Virus record (IMG/VR): IMGVR_UViG_3300049810_000816
Location: 1-53,987 of that record
Reading direction: 5' to 3' (one strand)
Origin: a virus
Length of the DNA stretch: 53,987 nucleotides
Shown: one piece after another, positions 22,091 through 26,709 of the stretch
Position numbering within the stretch: the stretch's first letter is position 1
Layout of the letters: the number at the start of each line of letters is the position of its first letter
Notes under the pieces: model-generated
The model's database searches: none
Seen by the model: the letters and a program-made list of their open reading frames with translations, nothing else
Told to the model about the DNA's origin: nothing
Program-made: the position numbers and the translations under genes

Positions 22091-24538
22091 TTACCAAGTT
22101 GGAACTGGAGATAACTTACCTTGTGTAGGTTCGTCATTCATAGTCTTAGGTGCATTAACATTGGTATAAGTTTGTCCACTGTTATTGTTAGTGACATTCG
22201 ACATAACATTTGAATTGGTTGTTGTGGTTCCACTTGCAGAGTAAGTGTCCATTCTTTGACCTTTGATATTATTACCAGTGTTTGGATTTCCAGCTGCAGT
22301 TATTTGTGCTTCAGTATACAAGCCAGGATACTTAGCATTGTGTTCCATCATTCTTTGTTGAAGTTTATTGTATCTTTCTCTCTCTACAATAAATTCGTTT
22401 CGCACCTCTGCCATTTCCATAGACATTGCAGAATCCGACGCAGGTTGAACATAATCTCTGTCTCTTTTAGTTTTTCTTCTTACAAGTTTCTCTTGAGGTT
22501 CATTTATTGCCATTTTGTCTCTGTCTCTTTGAGTTTCTTTTCTTATAAGTTTCTCTTCGGACTGTTCCATTTGACCTTCAATTCTTTCTTGTTCGGTAGT
22601 TCCCATAACTTTACCAGCAAGACCTTTCATCTTTTCATACCAAGACAATTCTTTAGGGACACCTTTGTCAAGTCTAATCATTGCTTCTGTTAGTGTGTCT
22701 ATTGCTTCTGAGAAATTATTAAGGTTCTTGGTTGAAGGTTTTAAATTCTTAAACATGGAAATTACATTACCAACACTACCTAAGTTTTTGAATGCTTCAC
22801 CTAAGTCAAGTAGAGGTTTCATGTTTACATCTTCTAAACCTTTTGCAAACTCAGTGACCTTTTCCATTGGTGATTTTGCACCAAATAAACTTCCTAAACC
22901 TTCAAGTAAACTTCCTATAAGACTACCACCAGTCATTGCTACTAGACCAGCACCGATTGCAGCTAATCCAGCACCGACTGCTATAAGGTTTAATCCGTCA
23001 ACTTGACTTAACTGCATTATGTCTGGCACAAAATTTCCGAATGCTGTTGCAGCTAAGTCAGCTGCATATGCAAATGGAATTAAAGATGCACCTAGTAAAC
23101 CAATTGCAAGAGCTCCTAGTGCAATTAGTGGAACAAAACTACCTAGTAATGCAGCTGCAACACCTAGTGTTATTAATGCAGCTGCAATAACACCTATGGT
23201 TCCAAGTCCAACGTCTTTCATTAAGTTAAGTGAAAATGCAAGTGGAACCATTGCAGCTCCAAGTGCTAAAACGGCTAATGAACCTTTGAGCATTGCACCT
23301 GTTGACCTTCTTAACATTTTTGCAAGTAAAACTAATCCAGTCATTGCAATTAGACCTTTACCCATTTGTTTAAAGTCTACACCATTAAATTGTTTTAATC
23401 CTATTGCAAGTAGTCCTACTGAACCTCCTAATAGTGCCATAGAGACTGCACCTTTAAGAACTTTACTATCTCCAAACTTCTTAACACCTTCTGCAATACT
23501 TTTTAGGAATCCACCACTCTTACTTCCTTTAGAAGGTATGATTGATTTGTCTGCAGTCTTTGGTAGTGCCTTTGCCATTGCACCTTCTTTCTCACCCTTC
23601 TTACCACCGAGTATACCCGAGAGGAATCCTTTACCTTTAGATTTTTTCTTAGACTTATCTGCAGACTCTTCTCCTCTCTTAAAGACACTAGTAATACCAT
23701 CAAGTGCAGGCCCGAACTTCTCTTTGAATTTTTTCACGGGACTACCCATGAATTCTCCAATACCTCTCATTACATCACCGAATGCATTTACCTTTTTAGT
23801 AAAGGTGTCTGCCATTCCAAGTAAGTCAATACCTATTAGTTCGTCTAGTCCTTCACTGAACTTGGTCATTCCTTTGAAGTCAGTAGTCTTCTCTAATTGT
23901 GTTTTATAATCTTCTGTAAACCCGTCTAACTTAGTTTTTCGTTCTTCAAGTTTTTCTTTTTCAAACTCTAAACCTTTGTCATACTTGTCATTAACTATTT
24001 TTTGTGAGGCTGCATTCTCTTCTTCAAACTTTGCTCGTGCTTCATTGAATTCTATTGCATTAATTTTTCCACTTTCGTATGCCTTTTCGGCTGCACGGAA
24101 TGTCTCTCTAGATTCTTTGGTTTCTTTTAGATATGCAGCTTGTTTGTTCTTTTCTATTTTATTAACAGTTTCTTGTGTTTTGTTAAATGACTGTTGTGCA
24201 ATTCTCATTCCAGTAAAGTTGAAACCAGTTTTAACTCCGTCAACTTCCGTTGCAAAGTTCTTTTGCATCATTTCAGCTTCTTTTGCAGAGAGTTCTACAC
24301 CACTCATATATTTGTCAACTATACCACTAAGACCCTTTAACTTCTTAGTTGCTAATGCACCCTTAAAGGTGTCTTTACTAGACGCTCTAAAGTCTGCAGT
24401 AATCTTTGCAATCTGAGGGGAAGCTTCTTCTAGACTATTAATAATCTTTTGAAATCCAGGCTTTAACTCGGAGTTAACGTCCCGTATTTCTTTTGCAAAT
24501 TCCTTTCTCTGTTGCTCTATAGTTTTGTCATCAGCCAT
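22091..24538 (-). CDS. Probable tail tape measure protein (gp29-like role)
   Basis: 815 aa. Long helical, charged N-terminal region (about 1-260, coiled coil), then a glycine/lysine-rich part, then a hydrophobic stretch with several membrane-like helices (about 375-560), and an asparagine/threonine-rich C-terminus. This order is typical of tape measure proteins, which set tail length and reach the membrane on injection. It lies downstream of gp26 and its frameshift extension, as tape measures lie downstream of tail chaperones. No direct match to T4 gp29 was recognised. Shine-Dalgarno-like AGGA upstream. Confidence 0.65.
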   Translation of the reverse strand: MADDKTIEQQRKEFAKEIRDVNSELKPGFQKIINSLEEASPQIAKITADFRASSKDTFKGALATKKLKGLSGIVDKYMSGVELSAKEAEMMQKNFATEVDGVKTGFNFTGMRIAQQSFNKTQETVNKIEKNKQAAYLKETKESRETFRAAEKAYESGKINAIEFNEARAKFEEENAASQKIVNDKYDKGLEFEKEKLEERKTKLDGFTEDYKTQLEKTTDFKGMTKFSEGLDELIGIDLLGMADTFTKKVNAFGDVMRGIGEFMGSPVKKFKEKFGPALDGITSVFKRGEESADKSKKKSKGKGFLSGILGGKKGEKEGAMAKALPKTADKSIIPSKGSKSGGFLKSIAEGVKKFGDSKVLKGAVSMALLGGSVGLLAIGLKQFNGVDFKQMGKGLIAMTGLVLLAKMLRRSTGAMLKGSLAVLALGAAMVPLAFSLNLMKDVGLGTIGVIAAALITLGVAAALLGSFVPLIALGALAIGLLGASLIPFAYAADLAATAFGNFVPDIMQLSQVDGLNLIAVGAGLAAIGAGLVAMTGGSLIGSLLEGLGSLFGAKSPMEKVTEFAKGLEDVNMKPLLDLGEAFKNLGSVGNVISMFKNLKPSTKNLNNFSEAIDTLTEAMIRLDKGVPKELSWYEKMKGLAGKVMGTTEQERIEGQMEQSEEKLIRKETQRDRDKMAINEPQEKLVRRKTKRDRDYVQPASDSAMSMEMAEVRNEFIVERERYNKLQQRMMEHNAKYPGLYTEAQITAAGNPNTGNNIKGQRMDTYSASGTTTTNSNVMSNVTNNNSGQTYTNVNAPKTMNDEPTQGKLSPVPTW

Positions 24539-24550
24539 TTACGTTATGTC

Positions 24551-24934
24551 CTATTTTCCACCGAATGCTTTACCAGCTTCACTGATACCGAATGCACCAA
24601 GTGTCACTACCACAAATGATGTGTAGATTGTTTCTGAAACTTTTAAATCCATATCAAATAATAATGCAGTTAGTAGGTCTGTTATACCAAACACTACCAT
24701 TAAAAAGAAAGATATAAAACCTATAATAGATTTCTCATTTATGTCATTGTCATCTAAAAACAAATCCATTACTTTTCTTTTAGGGGGTTCTAATCCAGCA
24801 CGTGCCTTCTTAGCTTCCTCTTGCATTTCTTTAATGTTGTCTTCTTGTTCATCGAGTTTATCGATAAGAGCCATGTATTTCTCTAAGGAAATCTCTACTT
24901 CATTGGTTGACTTATCCTTTTCTTTATCACCCAT
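24551..24934 (-). CDS. Membrane protein of the tail module, unknown
   Basis: 127 aa. Acidic coiled-coil N-terminus (about 10-50), then two hydrophobic segments (about 72-92 and 103-120). Lies between the gp26 extension and the tape-measure gene, 13 nt from the latter; AAGGA upstream. Unknown function; it may take part in tail assembly or injection. Confidence 0.65.
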   Translation of the reverse strand: MGDKEKDKSTNEVEISLEKYMALIDKLDEQEDNIKEMQEEAKKARAGLEPPKRKVMDLFLDDNDINEKSIIGFISFFLMVVFGITDLLTALLFDMDLKVSETIYTSFVVVTLGAFGISEAGKAFGGK

Positions 24935-24951
24935 AATACTATCCTTCTTGA

Positions 24952-25155
24952 TTATCTACGAGACTTTGCGTTCTCCGCTTGTTGTCTCTGTTTTTCTTCT
25001 TCAAGATGTTGCATGAGAAGTTTAATGTAAATTTCTCTTTCCCAAGGAATCATATTATCTAATTCAGTTAATGAATACTTGTGGTGTTGCATTAACTGAA
25101 AGTTAGTGTTATAATGATTGAACACACTTTCATGAGAAAGAGCTATTAAAAAAAA
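24952..25155 (-). CDS. gp26 -1 frameshift extension (tail-chaperone-like C-terminal segment)
   Basis: Open frame of about 65 codons downstream of gp26 in the -1 frame, ending at 24954-24952. It has no start codon near its upstream end (the first usable ATG, at 25092, gives only 46 aa), but its frame joins gp26 exactly at the slippery run T-TTT-TTT (25155-25149) directly before the gp26 stop. The peptide (SLTELDNMIPWEREIYIKLL, then a Glu/Gln/Arg-rich helix) resembles the C-terminal part of frameshifted tail assembly chaperones. A stem (GAAAGT+GTGTT with AACAC+ACTTTC, two-nt bulge) begins about 17 nt after the slippery site. A fused product would be about 299 aa. Confidence 0.65.
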   Translation of the reverse strand, partial: FFLIALSHESVFNHYNTNFQLMQHHKYSLTELDNMIPWEREIYIKLLMQHLEEEKQRQQAENAKSRR

Positions 25156-25850
25156 TTCTGTATTCCTTCTAGCTTCGTCTTGTTCTCTTCACTACAAGTT
25201 TTGCAATTCCACTCTACTGTTGCATTGAGTTTTGGTAATTTATCATACCAGTCACCTAACACTTCTAGTTGAGGGAAAGTCAATGATTCTACAAATTCAT
25301 TTATCTCAACTCGAGTTAAATCTGCACCTTCATAAACCTGTTCTTCATCAAATATGTTTACTATAGATTCTTTAATTAGTTCTACCGACTGGTTGGACTC
25401 GTCAAGGTCTTGTATCTTCTCGACATGTTCAACTGTTGGGACACTAAGTGTTAAACCCACTTTATCAGTAATCATGACTTCTTTTGATTCGGGAACTTCA
25501 CCATCTACTTGTATCTTGTCGAGATGTAGGACATAATCCTCTGTCTCTGAACATTCAGGATTTCCACAAGGGAACATTAATTTTGATGTTTCCCCTACTG
25601 AAACTTTCCTAACTTGAATGAATAACCATTCTAAGTCCGTAGTTGGTAAGTTCTCAATAACAACTTTGTCATTGGTCACTGCTTGCAATAATTTTTTAAC
25701 GGATTGCATAGTCCGTTTTGCATCTTCACCTTCCTTAGCTTGAACTAAGATATTCTGTTCTTTAACTAGAAATGGTCTGTATTCTATTGTTTGACCACTT
25801 ACAGGAAGAACTGTCGTATATGTCGGTGTTGCCTGTATAGGTAATGCCAT
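25146..25850 (-). CDS. 26: gp26-like baseplate hub / tail assembly protein
   Basis: 234 aa, matching the T4_baseplate (gp26) family in length and pattern: starts MALPIQATPTYTT, an LEWLFIQVRKVSVGE segment near residue 73, and four cysteines (95, 100, 216, 219) in CGNPEC and CKTC pairs that could bind zinc. T4 gp26 is needed for baseplate hub assembly. The coding end is AAT TTT TTT TAA, a slippery site; see the extension. GAGGA site upstream of the ATG. Confidence 0.8.
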   Translation of the reverse strand: MALPIQATPTYTTVLPVSGQTIEYRPFLVKEQNILVQAKEGEDAKRTMQSVKKLLQAVTNDKVVIENLPTTDLEWLFIQVRKVSVGETSKLMFPCGNPECSETEDYVLHLDKIQVDGEVPESKEVMITDKVGLTLSVPTVEHVEKIQDLDESNQSVELIKESIVNIFDEEQVYEGADLTRVEINEFVESLTFPQLEVLGDWYDKLPKLNATVEWNCKTCSEENKTKLEGIQNFF

Positions 25851-25875: not shown

Positions 25876-26709
25876 TTAACCATCTCCACCAATTCCAAGA
25901 CCACGGATTGTTCGTCCTATGTTCCCAGCACGGGTAATTTGGGTATCTGCAGAACTTAACTTAGTTAAGTATTCTCCAGCCTTTGGACTAAACCTTGAAG
26001 CAACTTTGAGAGTATCAAGTGTTGCATCTAATAGTCCACGTCCTGTATTTATACCACTAGAACTACTTGCATCGTTAGTCATTGGTTCTATAACTCGTGG
26101 TTCGTCTGTATTTTCAGGATACGAGATAACAAAATCTGAATATGCCATATCTACTGAAAATTTTAATAGGGGTTCTTGACTGTCTGCATCTAATGACATT
26201 TCATTATAACTCAAAGGATATGCATTAAAGAATTCATATCTCATAGCAGGAGAACCACTTACTCTTAGTTGTTCTATCATCATTCCCCCAGCATATTCGT
26301 TATAATATCTCATGACTGGTTGACGTAGTGTTCCTCGGTTTTGTCCTGCTCTATTGTCTGCAGCGAAAGAAGCCTCTTTTGCAGACTGAATTGGTGTTCC
26401 TTCATATATCTTTTGTTGCCATTGTTCAAAAATGATTCTATCTAAGAAACTACTGGTGCATATAAACTCTAAAGTAATAGAATCTCCATAGTCTATTGTT
26501 CCATCAGGGATTTCTCTACTACCCGACCAACCTGTATCTTCAGTGTTTGTTCCTAATGTTATTCCAGGCAAGGTTGCAGATGTGCATCTAAAATTATGAC
26601 CTTCTGGCATTTTAATACCAGTAAATGGTATGTTAGTAATTGCTACATTGAATCTGTTAGCTCTTGCACCTTGGTCAAAGTGTGATAGTAATTGATTTAT
26701 TTCTGTCAT
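25876..26709 (-). CDS. 54: gp54-like baseplate tail tube initiator
   Basis: 277 aa. NRFNVAITNIPFTG, MPEGHNFRCTSATLPG and later MRYEFFNAYPLSYNEMSLD match the tail-tube-like fold shared by gp54, gp48 and gp19; context with gp48, gp53 and gp26 favours gp54, which starts tube growth on the baseplate. gp48 is the diverging gene at 29964, so the usual 48-54 pair is separated and on opposite strands. Overlaps the upstream gene by 4 nt; AAGGA upstream. Confidence 0.75.
   Translation of the reverse strand: MTEINQLLSHFDQGARANRFNVAITNIPFTGIKMPEGHNFRCTSATLPGITLGTNTEDTGWSGSREIPDGTIDYGDSITLEFICTSSFLDRIIFEQWQQKIYEGTPIQSAKEASFAADNRAGQNRGTLRQPVMRYYNEYAGGMMIEQLRVSGSPAMRYEFFNAYPLSYNEMSLDADSQEPLLKFSVDMAYSDFVISYPENTDEPRVIEPMTNDASSSSGINTGRGLLDATLDTLKVASRFSPKAGEYLTKLSSADTQITRAGNIGRTIRGLGIGGDG

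Follow-up and report, generated by a model that had tools for sequence, protein, structure and literature searches.

A slippery T-TTT-TTN heptamer at the end of gene 26 points to short and long tail assembly chaperones from one gene in relatives of phage T4

In the lambda model of tail assembly, a short chaperone form coats the tape measure protein and a rarer long form recruits the tube protein; according to a review, long-tailed phages conserve the G/GT frameshifting behind the pair, 'except T4' (PMC5009743). T4 gp26 and gp51 are listed as hub assembly chaperones, and gp51 is required for assembly, yet absent from the particle (PMC3004832). Sullivan et al. (2010) found that cyanophage gp51 is about 20% of the length of T4 gp51, with the first ~200 residues missing, and that gp51 is missing in Aeromonas phage Aeh1 (PMC3037559). 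In phage Adele (Vandenendeviridae/Andersonviridae) a poly-T motif, GTTTTT, has been described at the 3' end of the TAC-N gene, and the passages of the Adele paper that concern T4-like phages credit Vladimirov et al. 2022 with poly-T frameshift signals in TAC-N genes of this group (PMC12846349). In the citing passage of the PRFect paper, Vladimirov, Gautam and Davidson 2022 (Virology 566:9-15) is the source for T4-like phages with one short and one fused chaperone gene (PMC10885494). As far as these citing passages go, a poly-T chaperone frameshift in T4-like phages was apparently already reported in 2022.

The DNA analysed here, referred to as the window, is a 53,987-base IMG/VR virus record, and all window features given below lie on its minus strand. 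A 234-codon gene at 25146..25850 encodes a protein that matches the Pfam family PF12322 (T4_baseplate) with E 3.7e-51 and PHROG 150 (baseplate hub) with E 1.4e-52 over positions 5-232 of the 282 in the profile, and these matches identify it as gp26, the candidate short chaperone form (TAC-N, 'G'). The AlphaFold2 model of the protein (pLDDT 89) was searched against the PDB and retrieved nothing below E 0.001; the match to the HK97 chaperone (2ob9) was weak (E 4.3, prob 0.13, TMt 0.38), and phmmer against the PDB found no relative of gp26 or of T4 gp51. As no solved structure was significantly alike, a chaperone fold was not deduced from the model.

Around the end of the gene the minus strand reads ...CAG AAT TTT TTT TAA TAG CTC..., with eight consecutive Ts. 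The original prediction placed a slippery heptamer directly before the gp26 stop and an open -1 frame without a proper start behind it, and both were borne out. The heptamer T-TTT-TTT (25149..25155) lies in the zero frame of gp26 (AAT TTT TTT TAA), fits the X-XXY-YYZ pattern of a -1 frameshift site, and is followed immediately by the stop codon TAA (25146..25148). The -1 frame is already open upstream of the heptamer and first meets a stop at 24954-24952; from the slip onwards it encodes 67 residues and offers no usable start codon. Chance can be excluded as the source of the motif, since gp26 is the only one among the 65 window ORFs of at least 100 aa with T-TTT-TTN in its last 11 codons, and among 675 ORFs next to gp26 at non-redundant related loci the motif turned up in 3.

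The -1 extension (24952..25155, 67 aa with both slipped Phe codons counted; TAC-C, 'T') has the peptide sequence FFLIALSHESVFNHYNTNFQLMQHHKYSLTELDNMIPWEREIYIKLLMQHLEEEKQRQQAENAKSRR (25155-24955) and matches PHROG 634, gp51 'baseplate hub assembly catalyst', with E 1.7e-27. It also covers positions 236-280 of PHROG 150, and therefore completes the profile that gp26 begins at positions 5-232. A short/long pair with a common N-terminal domain is thus present at the level of the reading frames, and both marks of the T4 gp26/gp51 family, the PF12322 domain and the gp51 C-terminal extension, are found in the window. The structure model of the extension is helical (pTM 0.47), and among relatives the extension is better conserved than gp26 (mean column identity 66% versus 46%). 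The likening of the extension to lambda GT-type chaperones holds by homology and architecture, the extension being gp51. Judged from sequence, gp26 most likely acts as the short form of a tail assembly chaperone, with the long form coming from the frameshift in the manner of lambda G/GT, and we put the probability of this reading at about 90%.

The gene order around gp26 is compatible with the lambda model, with a gene of a tail-tube family upstream (25876..26709; PHROG 45, E 2.5e-28; PF06841, E 1.1e-06) and a large gene downstream. The latter encodes an 815-aa protein (22091..24538) that is tape-measure-like by position only, and is separated from the chaperone locus by an ORF of 127 aa (24551..24934). 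The phage HTVC008M has ORFs at both places. Its small ORF has no detectable similarity to the 127-aa ORF, and its larger one matches PHROG tape measure families (E 8e-12). The window protein of 815 aa showed no significant PHROG or Pfam family, no match by tblastn in phage records and no similarity to its HTVC008M counterpart, and its identification as a tape measure protein by sequence was abandoned on these three comparisons.

To compare the gp26 3' ends of relatives, loci were collected by IMG/VR searches with the window extension and four extension sequences of other groups as queries, and annotated phage records were added. In the resulting 202 loci (167 distinct) both gp26 and the extension could be placed, and a non-redundant set of 104 loci was used for the start, stop and folding counts. 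The extension lies in the -1 frame at all 202 loci. Outside 17 Ackermannviridae and two Vibrio K364-type loci, T-TTT-TTN was found in the zero frame at 148 of 148 distinct loci. A calculated log10 P is disregarded, since the loci are related and their sites were located by means of this motif. Since most loci had been found via the extension, those chosen by gp26 similarity alone were checked separately; the -1 extension was present in 14 of 14, and the heptamer in nine, the other five belonging to the Ackermannviridae and Vibrio K364-type groups. The comparison suggested together with the original prediction thus shows the slippery run to be conserved as well as the -1 ORF, and the start codon shared by the downstream ORFs that was named as a possible refutation is not there, relatives having no conserved one.

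The arrangement could in principle stem from a frameshift mutation or a sequencing error that broke a fused gene of the T4 gp51 type and left gp26 as a truncated relic, T4 gp51 being an in-frame fusion. The arrangement recurs, however, at all 202 loci, and these come from cultured phages as well as independent assemblies. Homopolymer error cannot account for such a recurrence, and we regard this explanation as having a negligible chance of being right. The substitution pattern is likewise incompatible with neutral decay. Stop codons are absent from the -1 frame of the extension in all 104 non-redundant loci and amount to about five per locus in each other frame; substitutions in the extension are strongly synonymous (pS 0.76-0.81 versus pN 0.19-0.20), and the pattern is reversed or gone when the same alignments are read in other frames. 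By these measures the extension is under selection at the protein level.

The T-run itself bears on another alternative, namely that transcriptional slippage inserts a base in some mRNAs and so yields the same fusion with no ribosomal slip. Long homopolymers can cause such slippage, and the window run has eight Ts. Six Ts are short for polymerase slippage, however, and 53 of the 104 loci have only six in succession, which makes this route unlikely. The run is moreover fixed in reading-frame register, a requirement of tandem tRNA slippage. The codon in front of it may stand for Ser, Asn, Asp, Ala, Arg or Thr, yet its third base is T in every case, and the first Phe of the heptamer is invariably TTT, with TTC making up 31% of the Phe codons elsewhere in these genes. 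We consider polymerase slippage highly improbable.

Another possibility is that the extension is a separate small gp51, translated by termination-reinitiation or from a weak GTG start, and that the T-run is incidental. Many GenBank records do annotate a short gp51, an ATG is found near the junction in 20 of the 104 loci, and the junction of the Vibrio phages K364 and K448 is a TAATG overlap. Nevertheless, 52 of the 104 loci have no ATG, GTG or TTG for the extension in the span searched (the open -1 region as far as the beginning of its conserved portion, first residues included), start positions are not conserved, a Shine-Dalgarno-like sequence was seen in only three of the 104 loci, and the heptamer is retained even where an ATG is present. 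In the window, the open stretch contains a single NTG, the GTG at 25125, which lies about eight residues into the conserved region; no Shine-Dalgarno-like sequence was found at this codon, and a start there would remove the invariant residues L6 and H8. In T4, furthermore, the extension is fused to a gp26-like domain, which indicates that the fusion is the functional homologue. A separate gp51 therefore seems improbable as a replacement for the frameshift product, and re-initiation could add free gp51 at the 20 loci with an ATG near the junction.

Programmed -1 frameshifting on the heptamer may be assisted by a possible RNA stimulator downstream, a frequent though not obligatory element of such sites. 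The original prediction included a bulged 11-bp stem about 17 nt downstream; this was misplaced, as the strong stem (25063..25100; TTCAGTTAATG / CATTAACTGAA, arms 25100-25090 with 25073-25063) starts 49 nt after the heptamer. Relatives do not conserve it uniformly, and its role is doubtful. Folding also brought out a small hairpin, CTTTC-TCAT-GAAAG (25127..25140), 9 nt after the heptamer, which is a possible stimulator. When the 104 loci were folded against shuffled sequences, the mean z was about -1.7 just downstream of the heptamer and -0.45 in a control stretch further on, and the structures differed between loci, with no shared structure downstream of the heptamer among them. We do not claim a conserved stimulatory stem on the basis of this modest average signal. 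The 11 loci with T-TTT-TTA fold best on average (mean z -2.5), and several relatives with this heptamer (L011, L024 and L037) have strong hairpins a few nucleotides past it, e.g. AGGGCTCTCACATGAGAGCCT. Perhaps this better folding compensates for a weaker slippery site.

T4 has no heptamer signal and two genes instead, gene 26 (208 aa) and gene 51 (249 aa), which are divergently oriented. Each of the two products matches the whole of PF12322 (gp26, E 8.8e-64; gp51, E 3.9e-52), and on PHROG 150 T4 gp51 covers positions 13-280, including the extension, whereas T4 gp26 ends at 235. The C-terminal part of T4 gp51 aligns with the -1 peptides across the frameshift junction. Coverage and alignment together make T4 gp51 the equivalent, fused in frame, of the frameshift product, and T4 gp26 corresponds to the short form; the two are paralogues, with gp51 as the in-frame long form. 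Aeromonas phage Aes508 has gp26 and gp51 as in T4. In a tree of 40 proteins, with moderate support and some long branches, gp26 and gp51 of T4 and Aes508 stand apart from all frameshift-type proteins (support 91/89), a topology that fits one duplication in the T4/Aes508 ancestor. The original prediction had set a chaperone role against T4 maps with gp26 as a plain hub protein; the role stands, but as both T4 proteins are already on the list of hub assembly chaperones (PMC3004832), it is not new for T4.

At the Ackermannviridae and Vibrio K364-type loci the -1 extension is kept and T-TTT-TTN is absent. In Ackermannviridae gp26 ends with [AG]TT TTC AT[TC] T[AG]A, which holds no heptamer for tandem slippage, and the overlap codon is ATG in three loci (L201-L203) and ATT or ATC in the others; either a single-tRNA slip or re-initiation may operate here. 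The -1 extension of the Ackermannviridae loci (L093, 3196-3300; L098, L101 and L187-L204) bears a MPWHLDxL motif. In the Vibrio phages K364 and K448 (L091, 3220-3225; L092, 3169-3174) gp26 and the extension overlap in TAATG with no T-TTT-TTN, and these phages may make the extension by re-initiation. Aeromonas phage Aeh1 (L208) reads GAT TTT TTC GAC TGA, and an unannotated -1 extension continues for 56 codons past the stop. The gp51 of Aeh1 thus lies in the -1 frame after gp26, which explains why it was 'missing' in 2010.

We infer the slippage itself, its rate, the ratio of the two forms and their binding partners and roles as follows. Most ribosomes would end at the TAA and release the 234-aa gp26, while a minority would slip by -1 on T-TTT-TTT, with the tRNA-Phe in the P-site and that in the A-site both re-pairing, and would read about 65 further codons to give a gp26-gp51 fusion of roughly 299 aa. 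On the model of lambda G/GT, the tape measure protein encoded downstream would be coated by many copies of the short form, and the helical extension would enable the few copies of the long form to recruit subunits of the tail tube. In T4 and its close kin the same two products would come from the separate paralogous genes 26 (short) and 51 (long). The marine T4-type phage of the window and nearly all its relatives except T4's close kin thus appear, from their sequences, to make a short and a long chaperone from one gene by a -1 slip.

On balance we lean towards a T-TTT-TTN frameshift being ancestral in the T4 superfamily (Kyanoviridae, Pelagibacter, Methylophilales and Sinorhizobium phages, Aeh1, CC2/65, KVP40-like phages, pf16 and Xanthomonas X1), replaced once by duplication in the T4/Tulanevirus ancestor and by a different, non-heptamer signal in Ackermannviridae. 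If this is true, hundreds of records in which gp51 is short, absent or 'hypothetical' carry the unannotated tail of a frameshift protein. The data also suggest that the frameshift has been retained in the marine and basal relatives of T4, and that T4 itself is the exception and derived. The T4 genes 26 and 51 can then be understood as coding for the short and the long version of a single chaperone, and the gp51 of several hundred cyanophage records calls for annotation as a -1 fusion with gp26 instead of a gene of its own. The existence of closely related frameshift and duplicate versions offers a handle on how the ratio of the forms sets tail assembly. Three points may go beyond the record cited above: how broadly the loci were surveyed, why gp51 seemed to be 'missing' from Aeh1, and the Ackermannviridae exception.

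Among known systems, T4 is related by homology: the window gp26 is homologous to both T4 gp26 and T4 gp51, and the -1 extension to the C-terminal part of T4 gp51. The difference is that T4 uses two genes for the short and long forms, and the window one gene with a proposed -1 frameshift. The 'short gp51' of cyanophages is the same peptide as the window -1 extension, but was treated as a reduced separate gene (PMC3037559); a -1 extension seen without its gp26-like part fits the description by Sullivan et al. Phage Adele resembles the window in having a poly-T slippery motif at the 3' end of TAC-N and a -1 frame that is open throughout (PMC12846349), although it belongs to other phage families and is likened by the slippery motif and the open -1 frame. 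Lambda G/GT, like the G-T frameshift of long-tailed phages, shares with the window a short/long pair with a common N-terminal part, and a -1 shift, predicted in the window, near the 3' terminus of the gene for the short form. The lambda frameshift genes lie upstream of the tape measure gene, as the window locus lies upstream of a gene that is tape-measure-like by position only. The two systems differ in that no sequence similarity between them was shown, and in that the window has a T-TTT-TTN site and a larger N-terminal protein.
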